Shown in pieces: positions 30,500 through 49,786 of a DNA stretch of 64,000 bases (position 1 is the first letter of the stretch; each line of letters opens with the position of its first letter). This stretch comes from Planctomycetota bacterium (GTDB lineage Bacteria; Planctomycetota; GCA-2746535). Where the stretch lies: the NCBI GenBank assembly GCA_002746535.1, contig NVWA01000019.1:1-64000 (forward strand). The letters are read 5' to 3'. The position numbers and the translations under genes are program-made. The notes below the pieces were generated by a model. The model was not told the DNA's origin and ran no database searches. It saw nothing but the letters and a program-made list of their open reading frames with translations.

Positions 30500-32683
30500 A
30501 TGGGATTCAGTTTATTAAATAGTATTTTTGCCTACGGGCTTTTTGCCGTCAGTATACCGATCATAATTCATTTTTTGTTTAAGAGGCAATTTAAAACAAT
30601 TAAATGGGCAGCAATACATTACTTACAAGAAGCAGAAAAACGAGTTAGAAAACGATTGAGGCTCATTGAGTTATTCCTATTGATGCTTCGTTGTTTAGCC
30701 ATCATCCTTTTTATTTTACTATTTGGTCGATTAATTCTTGATCAATCAGGTAACATTAGTAAGTCGTTTGGAGGGAAAGCCTCATTTTATTATTTTGTAA
30801 TTGATAATTCACCCAGCATGAAAGCAAATGATGGATTTGGGAACCCTTTAAGTAGGATAAAAAAGGAAGCTATTGCTTTTATCAAAAATGAGTGTGATAA
30901 AAATCAAGAAAATTTCTTGACGATTATTCTTTCATCAAATCCGAAAGCACCCATTCTTAAAAAAATATTATTAAGTTTAGATAATTTAGAAGTTATCAAA
31001 AAAAGTATTTCTGATATTGAAACTAAAGATCAATCTTTAAAAATAGATGAATTATTTAATATTGTGCAAAATAATATTAATAAAAAGAAGAGTGAGTTTA
31101 ATCAGTTCATATATTTATTTTCAGATTTTAGAGACAGCGATTGGCTTGCTAGTGGCTCGAAAAAAATTAATAAATCTATAGCATCATTTGCAGGTAATAG
31201 TAATAAATTAATTCTCATTGATGCTGGAAAAGCTGTTTATAATAATGTTAGTATTTCTAATGTTACCTTAAATGAGAAAAGGATTATTGTAAATGTGCCA
31301 ATAAAATTTGAAGTTGAGATTAAAAATTTATCATCAACTGTAAAAAGTGACATCATTGTTGATATGAGTGTCAATGATTCCATTCCAATGAAAAAATCAA
31401 TTCCTTCATTAAGCGTTGGCGAAACCAAACATGTCATCTTTTCTTACTCATTTAATAAGGTAGGCAATTATGAAATTAAATATGAAATTGATGATGATGA
31501 TTTTAATTCTGATAATCAAAGATATTACTCTGTAGAAGTGAAGCAGGGCAACAAAATTTTAATTATCGATGGTAGCACTTCTCAAGACATCACAAATTCA
31601 GAGTCATACTTTATAAAAACGGCAATAACACCTCCTGGTGAAATGAATTCTGGTCACCAAATAATTGTTAAATCAGAAAGCGAATTTAACTCAACTTCGT
31701 TAAATAATTACGAAGTTATTTATTTGTGTAATTTATATAGGTTATCTCAAGAGAAAATAAATGAAATTGAAGATTGGGTTAATGAAGGCGGTAGTTTAAT
31801 ATTTACATTAGGTGATCAGATTGATGATAACTTTTACAATGATTATTTGTTTAAAGATGGCGGTGGAATTTTACCGGCAAAATTAAATAGTATTGAACAA
31901 TTAAAAGAGGGCGAGTTTTCTAATTTTGTAGATTTAGATTTTAATCATCCAATGTTTTCAATTTTTAATCAAGAAGCTAGTAAAATAATTTTGAATACAA
32001 GATTTTACCGTTGGTGGAATGTTGAAGTTAAAAATAAAATAAATACTAATATTTTGGGATATTTTCAAAATGATTCAAAGACGCCAGCTTTTATAGAAAA
32101 AACAATTGGTCGAGGAAAAGTATTTTTATATACATCTACAATTGATGATGATTGGAATTCATGGCCAACCGAGCTTAGTTATATTGTTACTCATCTAGAG
32201 TTAGTGAGATATTGTTTGTTAGATAAGAGTAATGAAAATGTAATTACGACCGGTGATCCAATTATTTTAAATACACCGACAACTATTTACAAGCCTAATG
32301 CAGGTATTAAATTACCTAATGTGGACTCTTTTGAATCAATTAAGTCCGTTGCTGGGCACAATAATAATGAATATTCTTTCAAATGGTTGAATACCCAAAT
32401 GGCGGGTTTTTATAAATTTCAATTAAACTCTTATAAAGGCGAGATAGTTAACAAAAGCTATTCTGCGAATATTGATAAAAAGGAAAGTTTGTTAGAGCAG
32501 GGTAAGTTAAAAAGTTCATTAAACAATTCTAAGATTAATAATTTATCATTTATATCTCTCGAGGAATTTAAAGATTCTGATGAAAAAGTTATTGTCGAGT
32601 TTTGGAAAATTATTTGCATCATACTTGTTACAGTATTGCTACTGGAATCCATAGTTGCATGGTATTTTGGAGGTAAAAGATAG
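30500..32683 (+). CDS. BatA-like membrane protein with VWA domain
   Basis: N-terminal double TM 'SLLNSIFAYGLFAVSIPIIIHFLFKRQFKTIKWAAIHYLQEAEKRVRKRLRLIELFLLMLRCLAIILFILLF'; MIDAS 'VIDNSPSMK'. Confidence 0.85.
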   Translation: MGFSLLNSIFAYGLFAVSIPIIIHFLFKRQFKTIKWAAIHYLQEAEKRVRKRLRLIELFLLMLRCLAIILFILLFGRLILDQSGNISKSFGGKASFYYFVIDNSPSMKANDGFGNPLSRIKKEAIAFIKNECDKNQENFLTIILSSNPKAPILKKILLSLDNLEVIKKSISDIETKDQSLKIDELFNIVQNNINKKKSEFNQFIYLFSDFRDSDWLASGSKKINKSIASFAGNSNKLILIDAGKAVYNNVSISNVTLNEKRIIVNVPIKFEVEIKNLSSTVKSDIIVDMSVNDSIPMKKSIPSLSVGETKHVIFSYSFNKVGNYEIKYEIDDDDFNSDNQRYYSVEVKQGNKILIIDGSTSQDITNSESYFIKTAITPPGEMNSGHQIIVKSESEFNSTSLNNYEVIYLCNLYRLSQEKINEIEDWVNEGGSLIFTLGDQIDDNFYNDYLFKDGGGILPAKLNSIEQLKEGEFSNFVDLDFNHPMFSIFNQEASKIILNTRFYRWWNVEVKNKINTNILGYFQNDSKTPAFIEKTIGRGKVFLYTSTIDDDWNSWPTELSYIVTHLELVRYCLLDKSNENVITTGDPIILNTPTTIYKPNAGIKLPNVDSFESIKSVAGHNNNEYSFKWLNTQMAGFYKFQLNSYKGEIVNKSYSANIDKKESLLEQGKLKSSLNNSKINNLSFISLEEFKDSDEKVIVEFWKIICIILVTVLLLESIVAWYFGGKR

Positions 32684-35109
32684 TGATAATCTGGTTGATA
32701 AAGACATTTGGTATTGATGAAAAGAAAATACCTGTAGATTCTGAAACATATTTGGTTTTTAATAATGCGCCGACATCTTGGTTAGTATTTGTGTACTTGA
32801 TAATAATTTTGGCTAGTGTGATATTCATTTGGAAAATATATAGTAATGAACATACTGTATGTAGCCTTAAAAAAAGAAGGATTCTTGCACTTACACGTAT
32901 AGTTATTTTACTTATTCTTAGTATTGTTTTTTTAGATCCTTCCATCGGTATTAGAATTAAAAAATTAATTGAACCGCATATTTTGGTGTTGGTTGATAAT
33001 TCTGCTTCTATGAAATTGAATGATTTCTATATTCAAAAAGATGCTAAAGAAGGAGTGAAAGGCTATTTAAATAAAGGCAATCTGAATGGTGTCAGATTAG
33101 ACATTTTAAAGAAAGCCTTAGGGGACTATGAACTCGATAAAAATTTAAAGGAAAAAGGAATCGTAAGTTATTACCAGATAGATCGAGAAGTTAAAACCAG
33201 TAAAAACGAGAATGGTTTAAAAGGCCTTGTTCAAGGAATCAAGGGGACGGGGTTGTTTTCAGATATTACAGGTGGCGTGCGAAATGCTATTTCTCAACAT
33301 AAAGGCAAAACTATTTCTGGTATTGTATTAATGACCGATGGGCAAGTAAATGGTGGTAGGCCTTTAGACGAGTTAACCAAATATTTACAAGATAAAAATG
33401 TTCCTGCATATGTAGTAGGATTAGGCAGTCCTTATAAAGCTAAAAATGTAAAAATTAATGATTTGTGGATTCCCACTAAAATTTTTAAAGGTGATCCCTT
33501 TCAAGTGCAAATAAGAATTAATGCAAAAGAGGTCACTAATGAAGCACTAACAGTTGAATTATATGAAATCCCTGTATTGAAAGATGGTAAGTTAAATGAA
33601 GAGAATAAATCTTTTATAAAGAAAAAAGAGATTGTTTGGAATGGTGGATTAGTCGAACAAAAAATTGTATTCAATCATACTGCAGAAAAAGAAGGAAAGT
33701 ACGCATATCGAGTTGTAATACCTAAATTAGAATATGAGTCAGTAGTAGAAGATAATATCAAGCAGAACATCACAGAGATTATTTCAAAAAAAGCTAAATT
33801 ATTGTTAATCTCAGGAGTAAGTTCATGGGAATATAGATTAGTAAAGACTCTTTTTGAACGAGATAAAACGATAGACCTATCTTGCTGGTTGCAATCCATG
33901 GATTTAAATATGGTTCAAGAAGGGAATATTCCTATAACTTCATTGCCTGATACAGAAGAGGATTTATTTAAATATGATGTAATAGTTTTATTAGACCCAA
34001 ACCCAATAGATTTTGATGAAAAATGGTTTGATATATTGGAAAAATTTATTGATAAAAATAAGGGCGGTGTTTTGTTTAATGCTGGTCCAAAATATTCTAT
34101 TCAAATGTTGAACTTGTATGCGACAGCTAATTTGAAAAAGATTTTACCAGTTAAGTTTTCGAAATATCAACGTGAACACACGGACTTTTTAAAAGTAACT
34201 TTTGGAAGGTTATGGCCAATGAAGTTAACAAATGATGGTCGTGGCCACTTTATAAGCCAGTACTACAAAGAGGTTTTAAAGAATGAAGAGGTTTGGCAAA
34301 AGTTGCCCGGAATTTATTGGAGTTTCCCTGCTATTGAAGCAAAACCAGGAGCGAAGATATTAATTGAGCATAGTAATCCTCGTTTAATTATTAAAGAGAA
34401 TAAAAGACCATTGTTAATTGCAGGTCAATATGGAAGTGGTCGAACTCTTTATAAAGGTTTTACAAGTACATGGAGATGGAAAAGGCTTGGCGAAAAGTAT
34501 TTTGACCAATTTTGGGTGAAAGCGGTTAGATATTTATTGGAAGGTAAATTAGGTAAAGGTAATAAATATGGCTCCTTGTATACCGTTAAAGAAATGTATT
34601 ATCAAGGAGATATGATTCAGGTAAATGCACAATTGTTTGATGAGTTTTTGCAACCGTTAAAAGTACCGACTGTAAAGGCAGAATTATTTCAAGGTTCCAA
34701 TAAAGTTCAGGAGGTAAAATTAAAGCAAATCCCAAATCGAATAGGTTATTATGAAGCAGAATTTCCAGCCAGACTGACAGGTGAAATAGAACTTAAAGTT
34801 GATAATTTAGTGTTGGAAGCAAAGGGTAAAAAACTAACCCATCAATTCAAAATTGAAATGCCACTTTTTGAATATGATAATCCGGAGATGAATAAATTAG
34901 GACTAACCAATTTAGTGACATCTACCAAAGGAAAATTTTATAATCCAATTGATCTTAACAATATTGGCCAGGATTTTCCAAACCGAAAAGAAATAATTAT
35001 GATTAATAAAAAACCAATTCAATTGTGGGACAATATGAGACTATTAATTTTCTTGCTTGTTTTAATAAGTTTTGAATGGTTTTATCGTAAAAAGAATAAG
35101 TTACTGTGA
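32683..35109 (+). CDS. VWA-domain membrane protein with glutamine amidotransferase-like region; GTG start
   Basis: Two N-terminal TMs; MIDAS 'LVLVDNSASMK', 'ISGIVLMTDGQVNGG'; 'KLLLISGVSSWEYRLVKTLFERD' region; C-terminal TM. Confidence 0.8.
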   Translation: MIIWLIKTFGIDEKKIPVDSETYLVFNNAPTSWLVFVYLIIILASVIFIWKIYSNEHTVCSLKKRRILALTRIVILLILSIVFLDPSIGIRIKKLIEPHILVLVDNSASMKLNDFYIQKDAKEGVKGYLNKGNLNGVRLDILKKALGDYELDKNLKEKGIVSYYQIDREVKTSKNENGLKGLVQGIKGTGLFSDITGGVRNAISQHKGKTISGIVLMTDGQVNGGRPLDELTKYLQDKNVPAYVVGLGSPYKAKNVKINDLWIPTKIFKGDPFQVQIRINAKEVTNEALTVELYEIPVLKDGKLNEENKSFIKKKEIVWNGGLVEQKIVFNHTAEKEGKYAYRVVIPKLEYESVVEDNIKQNITEIISKKAKLLLISGVSSWEYRLVKTLFERDKTIDLSCWLQSMDLNMVQEGNIPITSLPDTEEDLFKYDVIVLLDPNPIDFDEKWFDILEKFIDKNKGGVLFNAGPKYSIQMLNLYATANLKKILPVKFSKYQREHTDFLKVTFGRLWPMKLTNDGRGHFISQYYKEVLKNEEVWQKLPGIYWSFPAIEAKPGAKILIEHSNPRLIIKENKRPLLIAGQYGSGRTLYKGFTSTWRWKRLGEKYFDQFWVKAVRYLLEGKLGKGNKYGSLYTVKEMYYQGDMIQVNAQLFDEFLQPLKVPTVKAELFQGSNKVQEVKLKQIPNRIGYYEAEFPARLTGEIELKVDNLVLEAKGKKLTHQFKIEMPLFEYDNPEMNKLGLTNLVTSTKGKFYNPIDLNNIGQDFPNRKEIIMINKKPIQLWDNMRLLIFLLVLISFEWFYRKKNKLL

Positions 35110-35119
35110 TGGATAAAAA

Positions 35120-37255
35120 ATGAGCAATTTGGATATTTCTATTATTAAAAAAAGCTTAATGAAGATTAGAGCTTCTATCAGATCTTGGAATCTTATTACT
35201 TCTATAAGTTATTTTATTGTAGCCGTGTCGGTTGTTATTTTTATTAGCTTATTTGTAGATCGTGTATTTAGAATGGATTATGGACAGCGTCTCTTTTTTT
35301 TAATTTCAGGCGCGATATTTTTAATGTTTATTTTTTTCAAAAAAGTAATTCTACCTATGTATATTAAGATTACTGATGAACAAATTTGTCAAGCAATTGA
35401 AAAACGTACTCCTGAATTATCTAATAAATTAGTCTCTGGTTATCAATTTGCACTCATGAATAACCCTGAAGTATATGGATACTCTAATCAATTAGTTAAT
35501 GAATCTATAAATGAAGCCATCTCTGCTGTTAATCGTTTTGAAATAAAAAAAATATTTGATTCTAAATTATATTATAAAATGCTAATGGGTGGTTTTGCCG
35601 GTATATCCTTAATATCATTATTTTTGTTTTATTTTCCAAAAGAATTTAAAATTTGGACATCTCGAAATATTTATTTATCAGAAGTACAATGGCCAAGGCA
35701 GACAATATTAAAGATTCATGGTGTTAAAAATAATTCTATGGAATTGCCAATGCACGATGATTTAAATATTAGTGTCGAAGCAAATACCAATGGGGTTATA
35801 CCGGATTTAATTGAGCTGAAGTTGAATAGGAATGGATTAATAACCTACCATCAGCTATATAAAGCTAATAATAATGAATACCGATATCAAATAAGTCATT
35901 TAAAGGATAATGTCAAATTCCAAGTTAAAGGAGGCGATGACGTCTCGAATTGGATCGATGTTAAACTTATCGAACGACCTGTTATCGAAGATCTAAAGTT
36001 ATTTTATGTGCCGCCTGAATACACTGGAATTAAAAACAAAAACTTAGTGGTTGGTCAATCTTTATATCAAATTATTGCTGGAAGTGAATTTTTCATAAGT
36101 GGCAATTGTTCAAAAAATCTAAGCGTCGTTGAGCTCCATGCTAATGGATCATTGGTTAAAAAAATAGAGAAAATAAATAGTAAGAAGTTTTTAGTTGATC
36201 TAAATAAAGATGATTTAAAAACGGGTGTTTATGAAATTAAATTAATTGATCAGAGTGGAACATCAAATTATAAAGCGATTTTATTTAATACAGAGGTTTT
36301 AAAAGATAACCCTCCTGTAATTGATTTTAAGATTCCTGTGATAGGTAATTCCATAACTAAGCAGGCAAGAATACCTATAAAGTGGACTGTTACTGATGAC
36401 TTTGGTATTAAAGAAATAGGTCTGAGTATGAGAATGCTAAATCAGAAAGAGGAAGAAGCGAACCTATATATCGATGAAATACTAAAAAACGAGGATAAAT
36501 CTAAAAAATCTTTTTCAAATAAAGAGTTGCTTAAATTAGGTGATTACAAAATGGATATTGGCCACCAACTTATAATCACTATGACTGGTAATGATTTTAA
36601 TATATTAAATAATTCACAAGGGAAGTCTCCTATATTTAAATATCAATTAATTAGTGTTGAAGCATTGAGAAAAGAATTATTTGAAAGAGAACAAGAGCTG
36701 AGAGCTGATATTGTAAGGCAAAAGAAAGAAGAAGAATCAATTTATATTGAGACAGTCAGACTTATGGAAACGTTGAACACAAGGAAAAGTTTTAATATAA
36801 AAGATATAGCTCAAATCAGAAAAATTGAGAAAAAACAAAAATTAATGGGAAATAAAAATCTGTTTGTTGTGAAGATGTTTAATCAAATTTTAACGGCAAC
36901 AAAAATTAATTTATTAGATGATGATGAATTAGATAATTCAAACAGAATCAAAAATAAAATTACAAAACCTCTCTTAAATATTACAGAGAACTTAATACCT
37001 GCTGTAATTCTCAAATTTAAATTTGTGAGCATAAAAAATGATTACGAAACTAATTTAAACAAATTATTAGTTGTCAAAAGAAACCAAGATAAAATTATTA
37101 AGGTTTATGAATCTATATTAAAAAATATGAGTAAATGGGAAGGTTATTACGAGACAGTAAGTTTATTAAAAGAAATAATAAAAGAGCAGAAAAAATTACA
37201 AGAATTAACTGAAAAAAGTAGAAAAGATAACATTAAAGGAGTCTTTGATGAATAA
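35120..37255 (+). CDS. DUF4175-like membrane protein
   Basis: Two N-terminal TMs, position next to BatA/VWA genes, long extracytoplasmic beta-rich region 'LKDNPPVIDFKIPVIGNSITKQARIPIKWTVTDDFGIKEIGL'. Confidence 0.5.
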   Translation: MSNLDISIIKKSLMKIRASIRSWNLITSISYFIVAVSVVIFISLFVDRVFRMDYGQRLFFLISGAIFLMFIFFKKVILPMYIKITDEQICQAIEKRTPELSNKLVSGYQFALMNNPEVYGYSNQLVNESINEAISAVNRFEIKKIFDSKLYYKMLMGGFAGISLISLFLFYFPKEFKIWTSRNIYLSEVQWPRQTILKIHGVKNNSMELPMHDDLNISVEANTNGVIPDLIELKLNRNGLITYHQLYKANNNEYRYQISHLKDNVKFQVKGGDDVSNWIDVKLIERPVIEDLKLFYVPPEYTGIKNKNLVVGQSLYQIIAGSEFFISGNCSKNLSVVELHANGSLVKKIEKINSKKFLVDLNKDDLKTGVYEIKLIDQSGTSNYKAILFNTEVLKDNPPVIDFKIPVIGNSITKQARIPIKWTVTDDFGIKEIGLSMRMLNQKEEEANLYIDEILKNEDKSKKSFSNKELLKLGDYKMDIGHQLIITMTGNDFNILNNSQGKSPIFKYQLISVEALRKELFEREQELRADIVRQKKEEESIYIETVRLMETLNTRKSFNIKDIAQIRKIEKKQKLMGNKNLFVVKMFNQILTATKINLLDDDELDNSNRIKNKITKPLLNITENLIPAVILKFKFVSIKNDYETNLNKLLVVKRNQDKIIKVYESILKNMSKWEGYYETVSLLKEIIKEQKKLQELTEKSRKDNIKGVFDE

Positions 37256-39230
37256 ATTATTTTTAGTCATATTTATTATAAATTTATTAATATCGATTTC
37301 ATTATTATCTGATGAAAAAATTAATAAAGATGAACTCAAATCTTCATTGGTCATTCAGCAAGAAAATATAAAAAAATTAATACTTTCATTGGATGAAAAG
37401 TTGGTTCGTTTGGCAAATAAGCTCAAAGAAAAAGAGCCCGAAAATGCAGCTTTATTATTGTTAGCATACAAAAAGTCGAAAGAATCATTGATAAGTCTAC
37501 AGGTTGATCAGAATATTGATCTTCTCAAGAATGATGAGTTACAGGAATCAATCACTGCTCAGAAAAAAATTCTTGATAATTTATTTAAAGTAATGAGTGC
37601 TTTAACTGATGAAGATATTTCTGTAAAAGAAGAAATTAAAAGGTTAGAAAAATTAAAAAAGAAAATCAATAGACTTATTAAAGAAGAAAAAAAGCTCATT
37701 AGAGAAAGTAGTAAAATTGAAAACAAAGAAAAGGCAACTAAGGACCTAAGTGAGGAAATAGAAAAATTAGAAGATGTAATTAAAAAGAGTGAGAAGATTC
37801 TTGATAAAACAGTAAAAAACAGATTGAAAGGCATTCAAAGTCTAACTGATATTGCAAAAGGTCTTGAGAATATTCAAAACAAGGTGTCTAAAATTCATTC
37901 CAAAATTGAAGGCTCGCCTATCTCAAGTAAAAAAGAAAAGAAAGAAGAATTATTCAAAGAAGATAAAAAAACAAAAAAAGAAGATAAGACTAGTGAACCT
38001 GGTGCAAGTGAGTTAAAGAGTGCTTTTAAATCATTGAAAAAGGCGGAGTCTGAAATTATTAATGGTAGACCATTTTCAAGCGAAGGTGATCAGAAAAAAG
38101 CTATAGCGTCATTGAAAAAGGCCTTGTCGAAATTAAAAAAGGAAAAGGATAGAATTGTTGCTCTACCAAAAGATTACCCTGATGAATTGGCTGAGAAACA
38201 AGATAAATCATTAGAAGATTTAAAGAAAATAAGTGGCGATGATAAAAATAATAAATTGCCTGAAGAAAATAAAAATGAAGACTCATCTGAAAATGACAAA
38301 GGTGAACAATCAAAAGGTGAATCTAAAAAGAAGGATGATCAATCAGGAAAAAAAGGGGAAAATTCAGGTGAAAAAGGTGCAAGTAGTGGAGAGTCTGATA
38401 ATAATTCAGACAAGAAGCCAGAAGAAAAAAAGCCACAATCACCTATGGAAAAAACTCAAAAATTCATGCAAGAAGCTTCCAAAAATTTAAGAAAAAAGAA
38501 TATAGCAAAAGCCAAAGAAGAACAGAAGAAGGCATTAAAGGAATTGGAAAAAATTAAAGAAGAAATTGATAAAACTCTTGCCCAATTAAGAGATGAAGAA
38601 AAAGAAGAGAAGTTAGCTAAATTGGAATCACGATTTATAGAAATATTGAATAGGCAAAAAATATTACTTAGCAATACAGTAAAGTTAAATAAATTGAAAA
38701 AAGCATCTGGATGGACCAGATTGGAAAAAATAAAAGTTCAGGAATTAAGCTTAGAAGAAATTGATATTAAAGAGCTTGTAGTAAAAACAGAAGATTTATT
38801 GTTGGAAGATGCATCAACGGTTGTTTTCCCAGATGTCGTTAATCTTTTGAAAGAAGATATGATTGAAATAGCTGGTTTTTTAAAAGAAGGAAATGTTGAT
38901 GAGCTAACTATCATTTTGGAAAAGGAAACGATAAAAACTTTGGATGAGTTAATTGAGGCTTTACAGAAAGCTCAAAAAGATTTAGAGAAAGATAAAGAAT
39001 CTAAAGAGGGGCAACCTAATAATGGTAACTCTGGGAATACCCAATTGGTTTCAAAATCTTCGGAGTTAAAGTTACTGCAAAAAATGCAATTAAGAGTCAA
39101 TAGAATGACAGAGTTTTTCAACAAGAATGAAATAAGCGATGCTTCACGTAAGAAAAAAGAAGTAAAAAGAATATTTAAAAAACAGAAACATGTTTTGAAT
39201 ATTACAATAAAAATGAATGAAAGAAGGTGA
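37248..39230 (+). CDS. Secreted Lys/Glu-rich coiled-coil protein
   Basis: Signal peptide; long heptad-like K/E/L segments; low-complexity 'KKDDQSGKKGENSGEKGASSGESDNNSDKKPEEKKPQ'; ATG 37248 overlaps the previous gene. Confidence 0.6.
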   Translation: MNKLFLVIFIINLLISISLLSDEKINKDELKSSLVIQQENIKKLILSLDEKLVRLANKLKEKEPENAALLLLAYKKSKESLISLQVDQNIDLLKNDELQESITAQKKILDNLFKVMSALTDEDISVKEEIKRLEKLKKKINRLIKEEKKLIRESSKIENKEKATKDLSEEIEKLEDVIKKSEKILDKTVKNRLKGIQSLTDIAKGLENIQNKVSKIHSKIEGSPISSKKEKKEELFKEDKKTKKEDKTSEPGASELKSAFKSLKKAESEIINGRPFSSEGDQKKAIASLKKALSKLKKEKDRIVALPKDYPDELAEKQDKSLEDLKKISGDDKNNKLPEENKNEDSSENDKGEQSKGESKKKDDQSGKKGENSGEKGASSGESDNNSDKKPEEKKPQSPMEKTQKFMQEASKNLRKKNIAKAKEEQKKALKELEKIKEEIDKTLAQLRDEEKEEKLAKLESRFIEILNRQKILLSNTVKLNKLKKASGWTRLEKIKVQELSLEEIDIKELVVKTEDLLLEDASTVVFPDVVNLLKEDMIEIAGFLKEGNVDELTIILEKETIKTLDELIEALQKAQKDLEKDKESKEGQPNNGNSGNTQLVSKSSELKLLQKMQLRVNRMTEFFNKNEISDASRKKKEVKRIFKKQKHVLNITIKMNERR

Positions 39231-39233
39231 TGC

Positions 39234-41288
39234 ATGAAAAGATTATTTTTTTCGGTAGTCATAATATATTTAGCTTGTCAATTTAGTTTTGCCCAAGAGA
39301 AAGCAAAAACGAATTTTAATTTTGAGACTAATAAGCTAAGTGATGGTGATAATTATGATATTTACCTACCAGTAAAATTACCTAAAAATGAAAAACTACC
39401 TTTGTATTTTATTTTTTCCTATAGAGATGAAGGGCAAATGTTGGTTGAGCCCCTCCAGGATTTAGTCTCAGATTCAAAGATAGGTTTAGTTCATTTGAAG
39501 AATTTAAATAGCATTATGAGTATAGGAAAATTAAGGGCCAAATTCACTCTGACTGTACTGGATATACATCAAAAGTATTCTTTTCATCATCAACGAATAT
39601 ATTTTGGAGGATTAAAATCAGGGGCTATTATCGCAATGGCTGTTGCCAAATGGAGTAGAGATGCGGTAAAGGGTTTGTTGCTTGTCGATGGCTGCCATAT
39701 TCCTATTGAGGGGCATCCTGTAGTGATCTCTGATATCTATTCCTTTGGTCGAAAAGAAGGTAGGGGATTACGAACTTTAACAAATTTACAAAAACGTTTA
39801 AAGAGTTATGACGTTAAGTTTATTATTAACAAATTTGAAAGTGAGGGTGAAGTCCCTAGTAAGATTGAATTATCTAAATCATTTATTTGGTTTGATAAAG
39901 AATGGTTTCGATATGCTGATGATCTGACTTCTTATGGGCGATTGCAACGAAGACGAATTGCTCTAGCGGAATATAAGAAGATATCTAAATTAAAAAGCAA
40001 AAAGAAATTTGATATTATATATAATAAATTTGAAATATTCTTAGAAGACTTTGGCAATTCAAGTGAGCCCACGGTGCTGTCTTTACTAAAAAAAGCAAAT
40101 AAGAAACTTAATTCTTATGCAACTAAACCTGATGTAGTTGCCCTTCTTAATTATCGAAAAGTAACATCATTGATGAAAGATTTAACTAAAAACTATGAAA
40201 ATATTTCAAGCACAATAAATCAATTAAAAGAAATAAGCACACTCTACCCTAATACGTTAGCATCACAAAAATCTATTAAGGGCATTAGCTATTGGGAAAC
40301 ATATATGAAGGAACGTAAAATATATGTAAAGATGAGATCAAATGAAGAAGTGGTGAAGGGATATTTAAGTTTTATAGAAAAAGAAATTAAAAATGAACAA
40401 AATAAAAAACTGATTCAAAAAGTATATTTAAATGCTCAGCAGTCTAAAGAATTATCAGAGTTTATTCCAAATAGTATGATGTTAATAGATGAATCATATC
40501 AAAGAGGAATGATTGCATTTGGATTGAATAAGATGAATACAGCAAAAAAATATTTTTCGAATATTACTAATGAGCAGAATAATTATTTACAAGCATATCG
40601 CGAATATTATTTAGCCCGAATTCATGTTATAAAAGGTAATTATGAAGAAGCTGAAATAAAATTAGAAATGCTCTTAAAAGGTAATGTCAAGTTTACAACT
40701 CACAAAGAAGATATTTTCTTTCTACTCGCAATTAGTTTGTTTAAACAGTTTAAAAGAAATGAGGCCGAAGCATTATTTAATGAGTTCATGAAGAGGTTTC
40801 CTGACGCTCCAGAAAGAATGGTTGTGGGTGCATCTCAAATGGTTAATAGAATTAGGGCTTATGAAGAAGGTTCACTCTCAGATGTAGAAGAGCGCATGGA
40901 TTATTCAAAAAGAAAAATTAGATTATCAGATATGGGTGAGGATAGTATCAAGAACCAAAAAAAGATTGTGGAGATTCTCGCTAAATTAATAAAAGAGGCC
41001 GAACAACAAGAGCAAGATCAGAGAGATAGAAATAGACAAAATCAATCAGGTAATGGTCAATCTCCATCTAATCCAAGTCAACCTGCTGAAGAATCATCAG
41101 CACCAGAAGGTAAGACAAAAATTGGTGATTTGAAAAAATTTAGTAGGGGGAAAAGAAGTGAGATGTGGGGTAAAGCTCGAAAGAAAGAGAGAGAAAAGGT
41201 ATTGAATAATTTAAAAGAAAAGTTTCCAGAAAGATACCGCCAATTAATAGAGCAATATTTTAAAGGTCTGCAAAAAGATGAAGAGTAA
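39234..41288 (+). CDS. Secreted alpha/beta-hydrolase-like and TPR protein
   Basis: Signal peptide; 'YDIYLPVKLPKNEKLPLYFIFSYRDEG...RIYFGGLKSGAIIAMAVAKW...VKGLLLVDGCH'; TPR-like 'AYREYYLARIHVIKGNYEEAEIKLEMLLKG'; Q/N/S-rich linker and basic C-terminal segment. Confidence 0.6.
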   Translation: MKRLFFSVVIIYLACQFSFAQEKAKTNFNFETNKLSDGDNYDIYLPVKLPKNEKLPLYFIFSYRDEGQMLVEPLQDLVSDSKIGLVHLKNLNSIMSIGKLRAKFTLTVLDIHQKYSFHHQRIYFGGLKSGAIIAMAVAKWSRDAVKGLLLVDGCHIPIEGHPVVISDIYSFGRKEGRGLRTLTNLQKRLKSYDVKFIINKFESEGEVPSKIELSKSFIWFDKEWFRYADDLTSYGRLQRRRIALAEYKKISKLKSKKKFDIIYNKFEIFLEDFGNSSEPTVLSLLKKANKKLNSYATKPDVVALLNYRKVTSLMKDLTKNYENISSTINQLKEISTLYPNTLASQKSIKGISYWETYMKERKIYVKMRSNEEVVKGYLSFIEKEIKNEQNKKLIQKVYLNAQQSKELSEFIPNSMMLIDESYQRGMIAFGLNKMNTAKKYFSNITNEQNNYLQAYREYYLARIHVIKGNYEEAEIKLEMLLKGNVKFTTHKEDIFFLLAISLFKQFKRNEAEALFNEFMKRFPDAPERMVVGASQMVNRIRAYEEGSLSDVEERMDYSKRKIRLSDMGEDSIKNQKKIVEILAKLIKEAEQQEQDQRDRNRQNQSGNGQSPSNPSQPAEESSAPEGKTKIGDLKKFSRGKRSEMWGKARKKEREKVLNNLKEKFPERYRQLIEQYFKGLQKDEE

Positions 41289-42498
41289 AAAGATCACTTT
41301 AATTTGTACCAATTTATTATTTGCTTTTATTTTTTTGACAAAAAGTGTGTTGGCCGATGATCTGAGCTATAAAATATTAACTATTGATGGTAAGGAATTA
41401 GCTGCTAAAAAACTTGTGATAAAGCCAGATAAGTTGATGTATGATTCAAAAGCTATTAATAAAAATCAGATTTCAAGTATATCGGTTATTAATGGCAATT
41501 GCACTTATGCTAGTAAAGGAATAAATCTAGATTTTAGTAAGCCTTCAATGAAAGTAACTTTAGATTTGGTTGACGGTTCTCACTTTGATAATATTGAATT
41601 AATATTTGATAAAAAACAATACCAATTCTCTCTGCATGATAACAAGATAAATCTACATGATACTTCTGTAAGAAGTTTAATCTTGAAGCCAGAAAAAATT
41701 AAATCTATCAAAGATTGGAATGAATTTTTAAAAGAACCTAATTTACGAAAAGATAAACTGTTTATTAGTAAAAAAGATTCGCATGTAGCTATTGATGGAA
41801 TCTTCATGCGATTTGATTTTAACAATCAAAAAGTTGTATTTCTATGGGACAATAAAGAAAGGCTCGTTTCGATCGACAAAGTTATAGGTATCTTGCTAAG
41901 TTCTAAATTGGTAAAAAAGAAGGAGGCTTTAATATTCCATAATTCAATTATTTATGGAGAAGAAATAATTCTAGATAAAGCCACTATTACGATTAAATTT
42001 TTAGAAAATCAAAAAATTACGCTTGCATCCGAATGTATCAAAAAGATTTCACTTACTATTGTTGAAACAGAATATTTATCAAATTTAAAACCGACTACGG
42101 TTGAATCTGCTAATATTTTAATTGAGAATGTTAAGGGATTTCAAAATGATAAAAGTATATGGAATAACACACTAAGCATCGGTAAAAAGACCTTCAAGAG
42201 AGGGATAGGGGTTCATTCTAAAAGTATTCTTAAATACACAATTCCAGCAAATGCACGTAAATTTCAAACCTATGTTGGAATTGATGGTGAAGTTAAAAAT
42301 TTTGGTGGATGCATATTTAAAATATTAGTTGATGGGAATGAAGAATTTGTTAGAGAAGTTAATTCGAAGAATAAAGAAATAAAAGTTAATTTAAATGTAG
42401 AGAATAAAAAAGAGCTAACGCTAATTGTGTTGCCTGGTAAAAATCTTGATATTGGTGATCATGGTACCTGGGGTGATGCTAAGTTTATATTAAAATGA
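41278..42498 (+). CDS. Secreted NPCBM/NEW2-domain protein
   Basis: 'WNNTLSIGKKTFKRGIGVHSKSILKYTIPANARKFQTYVGIDGEVKNFGGCIFKILVDG...GTWGDAKFIL'. Confidence 0.75.
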   Translation: MKSKKITLICTNLLFAFIFLTKSVLADDLSYKILTIDGKELAAKKLVIKPDKLMYDSKAINKNQISSISVINGNCTYASKGINLDFSKPSMKVTLDLVDGSHFDNIELIFDKKQYQFSLHDNKINLHDTSVRSLILKPEKIKSIKDWNEFLKEPNLRKDKLFISKKDSHVAIDGIFMRFDFNNQKVVFLWDNKERLVSIDKVIGILLSSKLVKKKEALIFHNSIIYGEEIILDKATITIKFLENQKITLASECIKKISLTIVETEYLSNLKPTTVESANILIENVKGFQNDKSIWNNTLSIGKKTFKRGIGVHSKSILKYTIPANARKFQTYVGIDGEVKNFGGCIFKILVDGNEEFVREVNSKNKEIKVNLNVENKKELTLIVLPGKNLDIGDHGTWGDAKFILK

Positions 42499-42516
42499 TT
42501 AAATAAGGAGATTAAA

Positions 42517-43578
42517 ATGAGTGATGCTGCCTATAAAGAAGAGCCATTAGACCAGAATGATTTAGAAGCCATTGTGGAATTAAAAGGTGCATATGAAAAA
42601 GTTGCTGCAGAAATCGGAAAAGTTATTGTGGGTCAGAATGATGTGATTCATCAATTGATGGTTTCGATTTTTTCAAAAGGGCATTGTATATTAGAAGGAG
42701 TGCCGGGTTTAGCTAAAACACTTTTGATTAGCACTATTGCCGATACTTTGCATTTATCATTTAATAGAATTCAATTTACCCCTGATTTAATGCCTACGGA
42801 TATTACTGGTACAGAAATTGTACAAGAAGATAAAAGCACAGGAGAAAGAATTTTTCGATTTATAAATGGACCTGTTTTTGCGAATATTATTCTAGCAGAT
42901 GAAATTAACAGAACTCCACCTAAAACCCAATCTGCCTTATTAGAAGCTATGCAAGAAAAACAAGTAACAGTTGGTGGTAAGCAATATAAACTACCAGATC
43001 CCTTTTTTGTATTAGCAACTCAAAATCCTATTGAGCAAGAAGGAACCTATCCTTTGCCTGAAGCCCAACAAGATAGATTTATGTTTAAAATATATGTGCG
43101 ATATCCGTCATTTGAAGAAGAATTTGATATTGCTCAATCCACGACTACTAATTATGTACCAGAAGTATCACCTGTATTGTCGTTAGAAGAGATTGAAAAA
43201 TATCAAAAATTAGTTCGGAAAATTCCTGTTGCACCAAACGTAATTAAATATGCTTTAAAAATAGTTAGAGCAACCAGAATTGAAGAGACTGAATTTGATT
43301 TTATCAAAGAATGGCTTAGTTGGGGTGCCGGACCAAGAGCTGTCCAGAATTTATTATTAGGTGCTAAAACCGAAGCAGCTATAGATGGTAGAAATGCTGC
43401 AACTATAGATGATATTAAAAAGGTTGTCCATCCAGTACTTAGACACAGAATTATTACTAATTTTAATGCTGAATCTGAAGGGATATCAACAGATGATGTG
43501 ATAGATAAGATTTTACAAAGTGTTTCTGAGCACAGTGAAGATAGTTTACCTCAATCAGCAAAAAATGCATTGGTATAA
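42517..43578 (+). CDS. MoxR-family AAA+ ATPase
   Basis: '[10 protein letters not shown]', '[13 protein letters not shown]', '[34 protein letters not shown]', '[25 protein letters not shown]'. Confidence 0.96.
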
Positions 43579-43600
43579 ATAAAAGAGGCATTGGAGACAA

Positions 43601-44515
43601 ATGGATACTCAACAACTAAATAAAATTTTAAAACCTGATGTTTTTAACAAAGTTTCCAACTTAGAGGTTAGGGCGCGAAAAATTGTTGAGGGTTATTTAA
43701 ATGGAATTCATAGGAGTCCTTATTTAGGTAATTCTGTTGAATTCGCAAGTCACCGGGAATATGTTCCGGGTGATAATATTAAAAATTTAGATTGGAAAGT
43801 TTGGGCTCGATCTGATAAATTATTTATCAAGCAATATGAGAATGAAACAAATTTGGCATGTAATATCATTCTTGATGTTAGTAAATCAATGGATTATGGA
43901 CTAGAAAGTGATGGTATAAATAAATTAGAAACAGCGTGTACTATTGCGGCAACTTTTGCTTATTTAATGCGACGACAAGCGGATGCGGTTGGTTTAACTG
44001 CATTTGACCGAAAGATTAGAGTTAATTTAAAACCGAGTTCGCATCCTAGCCATATGAAGTTAATTTTTCATGAATTAGCTGGCTTACAGCCGGATGACAA
44101 AACTGAGATTCATACACCTTTACACCAGTTAGCAGAACTAATTCATAAAAAAGGCTTAGTCGTTTTAATTTCTGATCTATTTGTGAATATAGAATCTTTA
44201 AACAGCACACTAAAACACTTTAAATATTTTGGACAAGACGTGATTGTATTTCAAGTACTTCATAGTGATGAAATAGAATTTCCTTTCAAAGATAACATTC
44301 TTTTTAAAGGCATGGAAACGTCTGTAGAAATTCAAGCAGATGCATTATCTCTTAAAAAAGAATATATTAAAGTAGTTCAGGAGACGAATCAAAAAATCAA
44401 AAAAACTTGTTCGAAGCACGATTGTGATCACGTATTGGTTTCTACTTCTGATTCTCTAGCAACTGTTTTAAGTAGCTATTTGAATTTTAGGCAAAAATTG
44501 AGGAGCAAGAGGTAG
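43601..44515 (+). CDS. DUF58-domain protein
   Basis: 'SVEFASHREYVPGDNIKNLDWKVWARSDKLFIKQYENETNLACNIILDVSKSMDYG'. Confidence 0.93.
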   Translation: MDTQQLNKILKPDVFNKVSNLEVRARKIVEGYLNGIHRSPYLGNSVEFASHREYVPGDNIKNLDWKVWARSDKLFIKQYENETNLACNIILDVSKSMDYGLESDGINKLETACTIAATFAYLMRRQADAVGLTAFDRKIRVNLKPSSHPSHMKLIFHELAGLQPDDKTEIHTPLHQLAELIHKKGLVVLISDLFVNIESLNSTLKHFKYFGQDVIVFQVLHSDEIEFPFKDNILFKGMETSVEIQADALSLKKEYIKVVQETNQKIKKTCSKHDCDHVLVSTSDSLATVLSSYLNFRQKLRSKR

Positions 44516-46272
44516 TGAGCTATCATTCAATTAAATCTTACATTTTTTATATTTTAATAAGTTTATTTATCATCCCTATTGGAACTATTGAAGCTGATGA
44601 CTCCGAAGAAATACTAAAAAAAGTCAAAGAGTTTGAGAATAATCGAATAAAAGTTATAGAAAAAATTTCTCCAAGCGTTGTATGTATTTTTGGGAAAAAT
44701 CCCGGCGGCGGCGGTTCAGGAGTATTATTTAACATAAATGGATATTTAATAACAAACTTTCATGTTGTCCAAGGTGTTGGTCTAGAAGGTTTGGGTGGAA
44801 TATCAGATGGGAAAATGTATCCGATGGAAGTGTTGGGTATTGACCCTGGAGGCGATTTAGCAATTGCTAAATTAAGTAAGAAAAATAAATTTACAAGTGC
44901 CAAGCTGGGTGACTCTAATCAGGTTATGGTGGGTGATTTATGTATGGCCTTAGGAAACCCCTTTTTATTAGCTGAGGATTATACTCCAACAGTCACTCAT
45001 GGCGTTGTTAGTGGTATTAAACGATATCAAGAAGGACAAGGTCGACTGCTCGTTTATGGTAACTGTATTCAAATCGATTCTAGTATTAATCCAGGCAATT
45101 CAGGAGGCCCTTTATTCAATGATGCAGGGGAAGTGATTGGCATAAATGGTAGAGGTTCATTTGAGGAAAGAGGTCGTGTAAATGTAGGCCTTGGATATGC
45201 GATTTCTATGGAGCAAATCTTAAACTTTATTCCTGATTTATTATCAACAAAAATTTGTCAGCATGCAACATTAGATGCTGTTTTTGCTGATAGAAAAGAT
45301 GGCGTCAGATGTGTTCGTTTAAATTTAGATTCAGAAATTAGCAGATTAGGTCTTAGTTTAGGTGATACCATTCTTGAATTGGATCACATAAAAATTAATA
45401 CTGCAAACGAATATACCAATTTAATTACAACTTATCCAGCTAATTGGCCAGTTCATGTGAAGTTTAAAACCGATAAGAAAATCAAAGACGTTTATTTAAG
45501 ATTAAAAACATTGCCCTATCAGGTGGTCAAGCGAACCAGTCCTCCAACGGGTAAAAAGAAAATTAAAAAACCTGCAAATGTTTGGGGTAAACCAGGTATT
45601 ATTAGAGATAAAAAAATAAATTCTCGCGAATGTAAACGAATACTTTCTGATTTTAAAAAATTAATTAACCCAGAAGGGGTTAAAATAAAAAGTTTAAAAG
45701 CTCAGTTTGATATCACATTTGATAATAAAATTGTGCAAGAAGTTGAAGTAGAGTTTATTAATATCCAAAAACAGATAGTTTCAATAAAAAAAATTGGTGT
45801 AGATAAAAAAGAATCTTTTGAAATAAATTTCATAAAAAATAGTGGTATAAATCTTGAGGATAAAAGTGAACTTGATGAAGACCAAATACGTTATGTGATT
45901 GATCAAATAGAATCCTTATTTCAATATTATCTTCTATTGCAGGAGCCAGAAAAAAAATTTAAAAACTTTGCTTTAGTAGGTGGTGATAAAGCAAATGGCA
46001 AAAGAGCATACAAATTAAGAATAGGCCTAAATGATAAGCAGGATTGGTTGATTTGGATTAATATTGTTGATGAGAATATAAATTTTATTCCTAATATTTT
46101 GAAATTAGCTGCAACTGTAAAAGATGAAAGCACATCATATGGGAATACCCTTAATGATTTTAAATTATTTCAAAAGATAAGTTTTCCTACCTCTATCTAT
46201 ACTGTCAAAGGTTTGGAAGAAAAAGTAATACGTAAAATAAAAATTAAATCTTTAACTCTAGTAAAAGAATAA
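44515..46272 (+). CDS. HtrA/trypsin-like serine protease with PDZ-like region, triad intact; GTG start
   Basis: 'YLITNFHVVQG' (His), 'GGDLAIAKLSK' (Asp), 'INPGNSGGPLFN' (Ser); PDZ-like 'SRLGLSLGDTILELDHIKINT'. Confidence 0.9.
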   Translation: MSYHSIKSYIFYILISLFIIPIGTIEADDSEEILKKVKEFENNRIKVIEKISPSVVCIFGKNPGGGGSGVLFNINGYLITNFHVVQGVGLEGLGGISDGKMYPMEVLGIDPGGDLAIAKLSKKNKFTSAKLGDSNQVMVGDLCMALGNPFLLAEDYTPTVTHGVVSGIKRYQEGQGRLLVYGNCIQIDSSINPGNSGGPLFNDAGEVIGINGRGSFEERGRVNVGLGYAISMEQILNFIPDLLSTKICQHATLDAVFADRKDGVRCVRLNLDSEISRLGLSLGDTILELDHIKINTANEYTNLITTYPANWPVHVKFKTDKKIKDVYLRLKTLPYQVVKRTSPPTGKKKIKKPANVWGKPGIIRDKKINSRECKRILSDFKKLINPEGVKIKSLKAQFDITFDNKIVQEVEVEFINIQKQIVSIKKIGVDKKESFEINFIKNSGINLEDKSELDEDQIRYVIDQIESLFQYYLLLQEPEKKFKNFALVGGDKANGKRAYKLRIGLNDKQDWLIWINIVDENINFIPNILKLAATVKDESTSYGNTLNDFKLFQKISFPTSIYTVKGLEEKVIRKIKIKSLTLVKE

Positions 46273-46274
46273 TT

Positions 46275-47294
46275 ATGTACCCAAGTAAGAAGATAATTTT
46301 ACTGACATTAATTGTATTTTTTTATGTGACTTTGATTTCTCATGGTAAAGAAAAGAATAATTTATTTAGTAAGGTTTTTAATGAATCAGAAGCGAAGTGT
46401 GTCAAGGTCTATGGTGGAACTTTAGGCACTGAACATGGTTATGCAGCGGGAATGATAATATCGCCTGATGGACATATTATAACGGCCTTAGGCATGTTTT
46501 TAAGTAGTAAAAAATTGCGTGTCGTATTAAATACGGGTGATGTTTTTTATGCAAAGGTTATTAGAAGAGACCGGGCATTGCAAGTGGCTCTTTTGAAAAT
46601 TGCTTTTAAGACACCGAATTATTTTAATCTAAAGAATTCTGTTGTTGCTAAGCCCAGTGAATGGGCATTAGCTATTGGAAATCCATTTAAAGTCGCTGAT
46701 GGAAAAGAAAAGCTCTCATTAAACTTAGGTGTTGTGACAATGATAACTAAGCTCGAAGTTAAAAGAAGAGCCCAGGATGTGATATACAATGCTGAAGCAA
46801 TTTTGATTGATTCTATTACTGGAAATCCCGGTTCGCAAGGGGGAGCATTGGTTACAATAAATGGAAATGTCTTAGGTATGATTGGTAAAGTATTAGAGTA
46901 CAAAGGTACTAATACAAGAATAAATTATGCTGTACCTGGAAAACTATTACAAGATTTCTTTGATGGAAAAATTAAAAAAGCAAATAATAAATTAACGGTC
47001 TACATCGGGATTCAATTATTCTCTATTAGCGGAAGAAAAGCACCTGCCTTTATTGATAGGGTCGATATAGGTTCTCCAGCATTTTTATCTGGATTAAAAA
47101 AAGATGACTTGATCGTTTCTATCGGAGATATAAAAATAGCCACTTGTTTGGATTATGATAAAGCCATTAAAGAATTAAGTAAAGGCGTAAAAGTTCAGGT
47201 TCTAATTAGAAGAAAAGATAATTTTTATAAATTGTCGTTAGTGCCATCAGAAATCAAAATTGAAGAAGAGGAAGAAGATGAAGACTTTGACTAG
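46275..47294 (+). CDS. HtrA-like pseudoprotease with PDZ domain
   Basis: 'HIITALGMFL' (His lost), 'RALQVALLKI' (Asp lost), 'TGNPGSQGGALV' (Ser lost); PDZ 'AFLSGLKKDDLIVSIGDIKIAT'. Confidence 0.8.
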   Translation: MYPSKKIILLTLIVFFYVTLISHGKEKNNLFSKVFNESEAKCVKVYGGTLGTEHGYAAGMIISPDGHIITALGMFLSSKKLRVVLNTGDVFYAKVIRRDRALQVALLKIAFKTPNYFNLKNSVVAKPSEWALAIGNPFKVADGKEKLSLNLGVVTMITKLEVKRRAQDVIYNAEAILIDSITGNPGSQGGALVTINGNVLGMIGKVLEYKGTNTRINYAVPGKLLQDFFDGKIKKANNKLTVYIGIQLFSISGRKAPAFIDRVDIGSPAFLSGLKKDDLIVSIGDIKIATCLDYDKAIKELSKGVKVQVLIRRKDNFYKLSLVPSEIKIEEEEEDEDFD

Positions 47295-48384
47295 ATTATT
47301 TGTATTTCTTATTTTTTTGAATTTTATTCAATTTTCGAGTGTCAATTCAAATGATTACGAAGGTATGATTTTATTACCAAAAGTAATCCAGAAAATTGCA
47401 AAAAATCTTCGTCCATCTATTGTTACTATTGAAGGTTTTGGAGGTTTGTTAGATTCTTCAATTAGAGGAGATGGCAAATTTAAAAAACGAGTACGTGGGT
47501 TTAGTAAGCCGGGTGAAGGTCCAACAACAGGAGTGATTATAAGTGAAGATGGTTACATAATTACAAGTACATTTAATTTTATCCGTGAACCAAAGATAAT
47601 TACTGTTACTTTAAACAATGGTAAAAAGTTTAATGCGAAATTATTAGGTAAAGATAATACTAGAAAAATATGTGTTTTAAAGATAGCGGTTGGCAATGAA
47701 AAGTTAAAGGTTCCTGAATTTATTACTGGAAAGAAAACTAAAGTTGGTCAATGGTCAGTGTCTATTGGACTTGGTTATGGTGGAGATAAAGCTGCCATTT
47801 CTGTTGGCTTAATAAGTGGAAAAAATAGAGTATTTGGAAAAGCAATTCAAACTGATGCTAATATTAGCCCTGCCAATTATGGTGGGCCATTAGTAAATGT
47901 AGATGGCAAAATTATAGGAATATGTACACCATTATCTCCTATGGGTCAAGATGCGTTTGCTGGATTTGAATGGTATGATAGCGGAATAGGATTTGTAATC
48001 CCAATAGCAGATTGCGGTGACATTATTGATCGCTTAAAAAATAAAATAGATGTTAACTTTGGAAAATTAGGAATTCATGTGACTATTGATAAAAAATTCC
48101 CAAAGAAGGTTATGGTAGATCTTGTCATGCCAGATTCTCCCGCCGAAAAAGCGGGTTTAAAAAGTGGTGATTTAATTCAAAAAATTAACTCTCATGAGAT
48201 TGAATACTTAAATGGCATGAAAAAAATATTAGGTAGGTTTGAGTCTGGGTCAAAAATTGTTATGGATGTTAAAAGGAATAATAAGTCGTTACAGTTGAAG
48301 ATAATTTTGGGTAGTGGTAAAGATCTATTGATTCTTCCCAAGGAAAAAATCATTGACAAAAAAATTAAAAAAAAGAAACATTAA
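47278..48384 (+). CDS. HtrA-like pseudoprotease with PDZ domain
   Basis: 'YIITSTFNFI' (His lost), 'TRKICVLKI' (Asp lost), 'NISPANYGGPLV' (Ser lost); PDZ 'PAEKAGLKSGDLIQKINSHEIEY'; ATG 47278 gives a clean signal peptide (track starts at TTG 47260). Confidence 0.8.
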   Translation: MKTLTRLFVFLIFLNFIQFSSVNSNDYEGMILLPKVIQKIAKNLRPSIVTIEGFGGLLDSSIRGDGKFKKRVRGFSKPGEGPTTGVIISEDGYIITSTFNFIREPKIITVTLNNGKKFNAKLLGKDNTRKICVLKIAVGNEKLKVPEFITGKKTKVGQWSVSIGLGYGGDKAAISVGLISGKNRVFGKAIQTDANISPANYGGPLVNVDGKIIGICTPLSPMGQDAFAGFEWYDSGIGFVIPIADCGDIIDRLKNKIDVNFGKLGIHVTIDKKFPKKVMVDLVMPDSPAEKAGLKSGDLIQKINSHEIEYLNGMKKILGRFESGSKIVMDVKRNNKSLQLKIILGSGKDLLILPKEKIIDKKIKKKKH

Positions 48385-48424: not shown

Positions 48425-49786
48425 TTGGAAAAACATTTGAAAAGAGTCCTTATTCTAGTTTATATATCCCTTGTCTTGTTATCTTCAATTCAATCAAAAG
48501 ATTCTAAAGAATGGAGAAAGTTTAAAAAAGAATTCTTAGCAAAAATTAATAATGAAAATGTTAATATTTGTAAGTCTGCCATAAAAGACCTTGAACCTTA
48601 TGAGACCCTTGCTGCTGCAAAATTGGCAATTCTTTTTTTTAAACGCAAAGAATATGATATTTATGAATTAGCCTATCCACTATTGAGAAAGTTCAACAAA
48701 TCTGAAAAAATAGGATTGTGGATACTAAAGAAAGGTATGCCGCATATTAGAGACCCCTTAGCCAAAGCTTATGTGATTAATTCTTTGGGCGCTTATAAAT
48801 TTGAATCGATTGCTAATGCCTTAGAGAAATTTTTAATTAAGTCTAAAAGAGTTGAATTAATAATACCCTTTATGGAAACCTTAGGTGAGCTACATTTTGA
48901 ATCAAGTATTCCTGTTTTAATAAAAAAGAGAAGTTCATCCTTTTATAAAGTTCATTATGGATTTCGTAAAACTCTTTTTGAAACATTATTTAAATATGAA
49001 ACAAAAGAAGTCGTTACTTTTTTTATAAAAGTTTTATTTGAAAATGAAGGGATTATTGCAGATCAAATCACACAATATTTAACATCAATAACTGGAGCCA
49101 CTAAAGGTAGCTCTAAAAAATGGAAAGAATGGTTGGCTGCTAATAAGGATAAATTTCAGTTAAAGAAGATTACAAAAGAGAGTCGTGAAGCAATATTAGG
49201 CCGTAGCTGGAAAAATGATACAGAAATTACTTACCATGATATCCCTATTAACGGAAAGCGTGTAGTTTTTGTTATTGATACTTCTGGAAGCATGAATACA
49301 AAAGCAGGTTCAGATGTTACTAGAATGGCACAAGCCAAGGAAGAGTTGAAATTCGCCGTCATGCAATTGTCCAAAGATTTTATGTATGAAATCATAGATT
49401 TTAGCGGCTCTGGTAGACCATGGTTTAAAAGATTAATTAAATCACATAAAAATTCCTTTAAATTATTTTCAAATAAATTACGTAAACTAACTGCAAATGG
49501 TGGCACAAATTCTTATGATGCCCTAAGTAAAGCTTTCGAAACTAGTTTGACGACAGAAGTTATTTTTTTCCTTTCAGATGGGGCTCCATCTGTAGGTGAA
49601 TTTATTAGAAAGGATGATATTCTGAGGGAGATTAGATTGTTAAATCGTTTTAGAAAAATAACTATTCATACCATTAGTTTTGCTCGAAAACCAAAAAATA
49701 GAAATGCCGATAAAAAAGATGATAAAAAAGAAGTGTTTATGGAAGCTTTGGCCCATCAAAATGACGGCCAACATAAATACAAATAA
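48425..49786 (+). CDS. HEAT-like and VWA-domain protein, secreted; TTG start
   Basis: Signal peptide; helical repeats; 'VVFVIDTSGSMNT' MIDAS, 'NGGTNSYDALSKAF', 'VIFFLSDGAPSVG'. Confidence 0.82.
   Translation: MEKHLKRVLILVYISLVLLSSIQSKDSKEWRKFKKEFLAKINNENVNICKSAIKDLEPYETLAAAKLAILFFKRKEYDIYELAYPLLRKFNKSEKIGLWILKKGMPHIRDPLAKAYVINSLGAYKFESIANALEKFLIKSKRVELIIPFMETLGELHFESSIPVLIKKRSSSFYKVHYGFRKTLFETLFKYETKEVVTFFIKVLFENEGIIADQITQYLTSITGATKGSSKKWKEWLAANKDKFQLKKITKESREAILGRSWKNDTEITYHDIPINGKRVVFVIDTSGSMNTKAGSDVTRMAQAKEELKFAVMQLSKDFMYEIIDFSGSGRPWFKRLIKSHKNSFKLFSNKLRKLTANGGTNSYDALSKAFETSLTTEVIFFLSDGAPSVGEFIRKDDILREIRLLNRFRKITIHTISFARKPKNRNADKKDDKKEVFMEALAHQNDGQHKYK

Follow-up and report, generated by a model that had tools for sequence, protein, structure and literature searches.

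The textbook HtrA protease is a homotrimer whose neighbouring subunits activate one another and, all three subunits being identical, the effect of any one of them on its neighbour is hard to isolate. The trimer is the functional unit of these proteases (PMC3640471); in DegS, Arg178 of the L3 loop contacts the LD' loop of the adjacent subunit, forming an activation cluster (PMC11642142). The closest described case to the system discussed here is the MamE/MamO pair of magnetotactic bacteria, where the degenerate HtrA paralogue MamO is required for proteolysis by the active MamE (PMC4794232). A trio of related genes lies in the 64,000-nucleotide stretch of Planctomycetota bacterium DNA that was analysed (contig NVWA01000019.1 of assembly GCA_002746535.1, positions 1 to 64,000; hereafter the window): one gene for an active HtrA-type protease, P1, followed by two for HtrA-like pseudoproteases, P2 and P3, in which every position of the catalytic triad has been replaced. 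The trio is ancient and phylum-wide and no local oddity, an extent that lay beyond the reach of the initial annotation, made from the letters of the window alone. It seems to split the jobs, one subunit cutting and two not, and this division has been kept across families and in two gene arrangements.

The MamE/MamO pair resembles the trio in that a degenerate HtrA paralogue is encoded next to a working HtrA protease, and MamO resembles P3 in having a residue other than glycine at position 193 (A, V, S, I, N, T, M or L among P3 orthologues). It differs in having one dead partner rather than two, in the TauE-like transporter domain and metal-binding site that are features of MamO, in its restriction to magnetosome islands, and in that a physical interaction between the two proteins was not detected (PMC4794232). 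Pfam shows no such transporter domain in P2 or P3. Neither of them belongs to the MamO family: against a cut-off of 800 bits for the NCBIfam model NF040961 they score 35 and 31 bits, and the weak matches lie at 31-51 bits. DegP, DegQ and DegS (MEROPS S1C) share the architecture of a trypsin-like domain plus PDZ, and P1 matches their family TIGR02037, but they are homotrimers with three identical active sites, unlike a set of one active and two dead paralogues. ClpP/ClpR and similar systems, whose rings combine active with inactive protease subunits, follow the same general principle as that proposed below for the trio, though with an unrelated protease fold, ATP dependence and larger rings. 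In Arabidopsis, Deg5 and Deg8 act together. These too are separate HtrA paralogues that share a compartment (PMC3640471), but both have a full catalytic triad (the structures were solved as Ser-to-Ala mutants) and there are no dead subunits. PDZ expansion in planctomycetes has been reported in a survey of microbial PDZ proteins (PMC6411480), from the text of which the words "inactive" and "catalytic" are absent. No description of the trio was found in the literature searched, which took in only a minority of subscription papers and no bioRxiv preprints; an HtrA protease with a pseudoprotease partner is known, and there is a real possibility that the trio represents a novel quaternary structure for HtrA.

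All three genes lie on the forward strand. P1 (44515-46272) has a GTG start and encodes 585 amino acids (aa), with a signal-like N-terminus, a trypsin-like domain at aa 67-210, a weak PDZ-like region at about aa 240-335 and a C-terminal domain from about aa 355. P2 (46275-47294, 339 aa) has its trypsin-like domain at aa 58-202 and a PDZ domain at aa 243-316, while P3 (47278-48384) also combines a trypsin-like domain with PDZ in 368 aa from the ATG at 47278; the longest P3 frame begins at an alternative TTG start at 47260 and gives 374 aa, and P3 residues are numbered here from that TTG. P1 and P2 lie 2 nucleotides (nt) apart and, counted from the P3 ATG, P2 and P3 overlap by exactly 17 nt, as had been reported from the sequence; this spacing is as coupled expression would predict. 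Open reading frames, Pfam and the alignment of individual residues agree with the initial annotation in placing three consecutive HtrA-like genes here, one active and two without a triad. Its statement that folds and PDZ domains are retained held for the Trypsin_2 domain of all three proteins (P1 95, P2 55 and P3 67 bits, all above the gathering score of 27.6) and for the PDZ of P2 and P3, which exceeds the Pfam cut-off; Pfam detected no PDZ in the P1 of the window, and in P1 orthologues the domain is weak and below cut-off. Against DegQ/DegP structures the best E-values of the family profiles were 1e-52 for P2 and 6e-65 for P3. None of the three window proteins reaches a curated NCBIfam subfamily cut-off, the scores for TIGR02037 (cut-off 416.2) being 174.6, 110.9 and 174.9 bits for P1, P2 and P3. 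Five further HtrA domains occur elsewhere in the genome, every one a singleton.

In P1 the triad consists of His83 (44761-44763), Asp114 (44854-44856) and Ser196 (45100-45102, in NPGNSGG). Family profile alignments of P2 and P3 to solved DegQ/DegP-type proteases, which have no gaps around the catalytic sites, place Gly73 (46491-46493), Gln103 (46581-46583) and Gln188 (46836-46838) of P2, and Phe105 (47572-47574), Lys136 (47665-47667) and Tyr207 (47878-47880) of P3, at the His, Asp and Ser positions; all six substitutions first read from the sequence, including His to Phe, are borne out. A triad displaced to some other place in P2 or P3 was looked for and none was found. (An Asn in the P3 His column of a first MAFFT alignment, where P3 was shifted by one, proved to be a gap artefact; the ungapped profile alignment gives Phe.) The L3 loop of P1 has Arg170 (45022-45024) at the position of DegS Arg178, and Arg190 of P3 (47827-47829) aligns with the L3 Arg of DegP-type proteases.

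Each trio protein was searched against 294 sampled genomes of the phylum, among which the window genome is the sole one of its order; this phylum is the scope of the counts given here, and those of co-occurrence and fusion are raw, with relatedness among genomes ignored. P3 orthologues were found in 46 genomes from 17 families. P2 is present in 45 of the same genomes (in G190, where it was not detected, the contig ends there) and P1 in all 46 plus G006, 47 in total; P1 is thus present in every genome that has P2 or P3. Genome G006, the only one with P1 and without a P3 of the kind in the window, carries dead partners of its own (locus L109). Gene order was given a first look at 60 loci. Those with the arrangement of the window, termed class I, have the genes consecutive in the order P1-P2-P3 in nearly all cases read, so that the active-dead-dead synteny is indeed conserved, and its conservation throughout the phylum excludes chance. 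Class I trios are present in 16/16 sampled genomes of family f24 and 7/7 of f18 (one with P2 beyond the contig end), the constancy expected of a core function. Among the matches listed in a plasmid search, identities were only about 30-34%, to DegQ-like or trypsin-like peptidases where annotated, which says nothing on absence outside the phylum.

The triad is HDS in 42/42 P1 orthologues. At the Ser position, Ser occurs in 0/43 P2 orthologues (A 15, Q 11, Y 6, P 5, F 2, G 2, D 1 and E 1), and all 46 P3 orthologues have Tyr; the His position of P3 is occupied by F (35), W (6), Y (4) or L (1), and never by His. No class I relative was found in which P2 or P3 has its triad intact. The L3 Arg is kept in 46/46 P3 and 40/41 P1 orthologues, NPGxxGG is conserved in P2, and each paralogue has a separate set of conserved motifs, for example WYDSGIGF in P3 and GRVN in P1. 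For the protease part of the genes, the ratio of nonsynonymous to synonymous substitution rates (dN/dS) in close pairs is 0.02-0.22 for P2 and P3 and 0.02-0.15 for P1; synonymous change is saturated in more distant pairs, and the reading of selection rests on the close ones. A high P2 value of about 0.9 for the whole gene in the L075/L092 pair was traced to over-called 5' ends, the protease part alone giving 0.22. The dead protease domains themselves, and not PDZ alone, are therefore constrained by strong purifying selection, and with values far below 1 the earlier proposal of selected non-catalytic roles rather than decay is upheld.

A second arrangement, class II, mostly in the order dead-dead-active, was found at 30 loci in 19 families, picked through next-best P1-like hits and not by a census. 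The residues at the three triad positions are, for example, TED, FDS and HDS, or RHF, WDA and HDS, in the three successive genes. Some P1-like hits have no dead neighbour, L140, L142 and L156 among those at contig ends and L159, L175 and L176 otherwise. Classes I and II occur together in genomes G043, G036 and G019 and in members of f18, and in G064 a class I trio is accompanied by a class II cluster that is incomplete and lies where a contig ends. In the tree, the active class II genes join the P1 lineage as one group (97) and the second dead class II gene groups with P3 (96), also with the triad columns masked; once those columns are masked and the long branches taken out, the labels jointly require the minimum number of changes. 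Joining the first dead class II gene with P2 raises the likelihood and is not rejected (p-value of the approximately unbiased test, p-AU, 0.63). On these links the class II trios would consist of the same three paralogue lineages as P1, P2 and P3, and the simplest history is that an ancestor of many families already had one active paralogue and two dead ones, co-inherited since. The P3-like proteins of class II have lost the His, often keep the Asp and sometimes the Ser (FDS, YDS, WDS), with only the His lost in the middle genes of L144, L145, L148, L167 and L114; these may possibly represent an intermediate stage in the loss of catalysis.

Natural fusions join all of the possible pairs. P1 and P2 lie in one reading frame at loci L077 and L078 (f84), L097 (f35) and L106 (f39), three families, each a lineage in which most of the neighbours in the tree have the two genes separate. 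The two dead proteins, P2 and P3, are fused at L139, L152, L153, L160, L169 and L170 (and partly seen so at L146), and the second dead protein is fused to the active one, P3 to P1, at L172. Every pair is fused in frame somewhere, and the total is always one active and two dead domains. A further candidate at L173 was rejected, its long frame crossing the middle gene out of frame.

HtrA works as a trimer and the set is one active plus two dead, and a mixed 1:1:1 trimer is the best explanation of the two together; recurrence of the set across families and fusion of each pair somewhere indicate that this is probably a three-part protease with one working site. The explanation held here with moderate confidence is an exported HtrA assembly of three paralogues, most likely a 1:1:1 heterotrimer, with P1 as the sole active site and P2 and P3 in regulatory or substrate-handling roles. 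P1 would do the cutting, and P2 and P3 would stand where an ordinary HtrA homotrimer has two further copies of the same subunit. P3 cannot cut and yet keeps the L3 Arg by which a neighbour is activated, which points to a trans-activating pseudo-subunit: that invariant Arg would probably reach into the activation cluster of the neighbouring subunit, the Tyr/aromatic-filled active site of P3 itself being unable to cut. P2 would probably supply its PDZ and a peptide-binding surface, handling substrate or signal. The wider proposal, put forward with slightly better than even confidence, is of an ancient, phylum-wide, obligate heterotrimeric HtrA family that has one active site in each ring and exists in two genomic classes. 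In it, two pseudo-subunits on separate evolutionary paths would have put a division of labour in place of homotrimer self-activation, one being a trans-activator with the conserved L3 Arg and the other a receptor for substrate or signal.

Several points weigh against the mixed trimer. The hetero-oligomer suggested by the initial annotation has gained strong indirect support from the fusions of all three pairs and the near-perfect co-occurrence, but contact was not observed, and we infer it along with the 1:1:1 stoichiometry and the subunit roles. Fusion and co-retention would also be compatible with homotrimers that do no more than cooperate, or with three members of a single pathway. The L3 Arg has been lost from P2 in most orthologues, being kept in 10/43. 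In two genomes of genus g77 the trio genes are unlinked -- at 4.06, 3.73 and 6.61 Mb on the single contig of G104, and likewise in separate places in G086 -- and clustering is accordingly not essential, though all three are kept in both. AlphaFold2 single-chain models built from a three-row alignment were poor, with a predicted local distance difference test score (pLDDT) of 47 for P2 and 34 for P3. Finally, the "fully dead" status of the P3-like proteins of class II is less certain, though the general-base His is gone.

The alternative that fares best, and which has a real though clearly smaller chance of being right, is that P2 and P3 act as modulators of P1, or hand substrates to it, with no stable mixed trimer involved, forming their own homotrimers as PDZ chaperones or scaffolds and meeting P1 transiently, in the manner of MamO. 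HtrA paralogues usually homotrimerise, and each of the three proteins has its own conserved set of motifs (such as WYDSGIGF in P3 and GRVN in P1), both of which suit this proposal, as does the activation of MamE-dependent proteolysis by MamO with no physical interaction detected (PMC4794232). Fusions of all three pairs and a fixed composition of one active and two dead domains are less expected from transient partners, however, as is the keeping of a trans-acting L3 Arg by P3, itself unable to cut. It is rather unlikely that P2 and P3 were repurposed apart from P1 proteolysis, for metal, peptide or cell-surface binding, and are kept together by a single pathway of the operon. MamO did gain metal binding (PMC4794232), and there are many vWA, TPR and NPCBM genes in the operon, but the class II trios, which appear to be of the same three lineages, had no detected MoxR/vWA operon genes around L109-L122, where the neighbourhoods were screened, and this points to a bond with P1 and not with the operon. 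A conflict (defence) module is very improbable: predicted MoxR-vWA-centric conflict systems do include trypsin-like peptidases (PMC7159879), but such a module would be expected to have variable effectors and a patchy distribution. Class I is instead kept in all sampled f24 and f18 genomes, and conservation is high in the triads and in several loops, which are not diversifying. Decay of P1 duplicates, which has the loss of catalytic residues and nothing else in its favour, is refuted by the low dN/dS of the dead protease parts (0.02-0.22), the Tyr of P3 in 46/46 and retention across 17 families.

Should the mixed trimer be true, the trio would offer a natural system for studying trans-activation separately in each subunit, and would add bacterial HtrA to the protease rings in which inactive paralogues have turned regulatory. 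In these bacteria, proteolysis is beyond the capacity of many proteins that are likely to carry the annotation "trypsin-like peptidase".

The C-terminal domain of P1 (aa 355-585, window positions 45577-46272) is conserved in class I P1 orthologues, aligning at 12-23% identity to that of the window; no solved relative was found, and it is LolA-like by eye only. The P3 orthologues of L067-L071, L073 and L082-L096 (families f24, f68 and f49) are longer, at about 640-690 aa, and carry an additional PDZ-like region followed up by an extra C-terminal extension, neither of which is present in the P3 of the window.

Upstream of the trio, in the same run on the forward strand (30500-44515), are genes for BatA-like, vWA, DUF4175-like, coiled-coil, TPR, NPCBM, MoxR AAA+ and DUF58 proteins, and the GTG of P1 has one base in common with the stop of the DUF58 gene. 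The vWA-to-NPCBM stretch is also found upstream of the trio in most class I relatives, in most of which an NPCBM or TPR gene is directly 5' of P1; here MoxR and DUF58 (42517-44515) sit between the NPCBM gene and P1. At the Phycisphaerae loci L057 and L062 MoxR and DUF58 are placed before BatA, and matches to the DUF58 neighbour include Phycisphaerae with the same set, PrenylSQ-MoxR-DUF58-BatA-vWA-DUF4175-coil. The trio may be linked to the neighbouring MoxR-DUF58-vWA genes. A further vWA protein is encoded downstream (48425-49786, forward strand), its linkage to the trio not being seen in relatives. The same gene run begins with a 1461-aa protein (25081-29466) that has TPR-like and PQQ-type beta-propeller-like repeats, and on the reverse strand, at 20928-22256, lies a protein whose translation shows, by eye, two apparent FKBP-type repeats.

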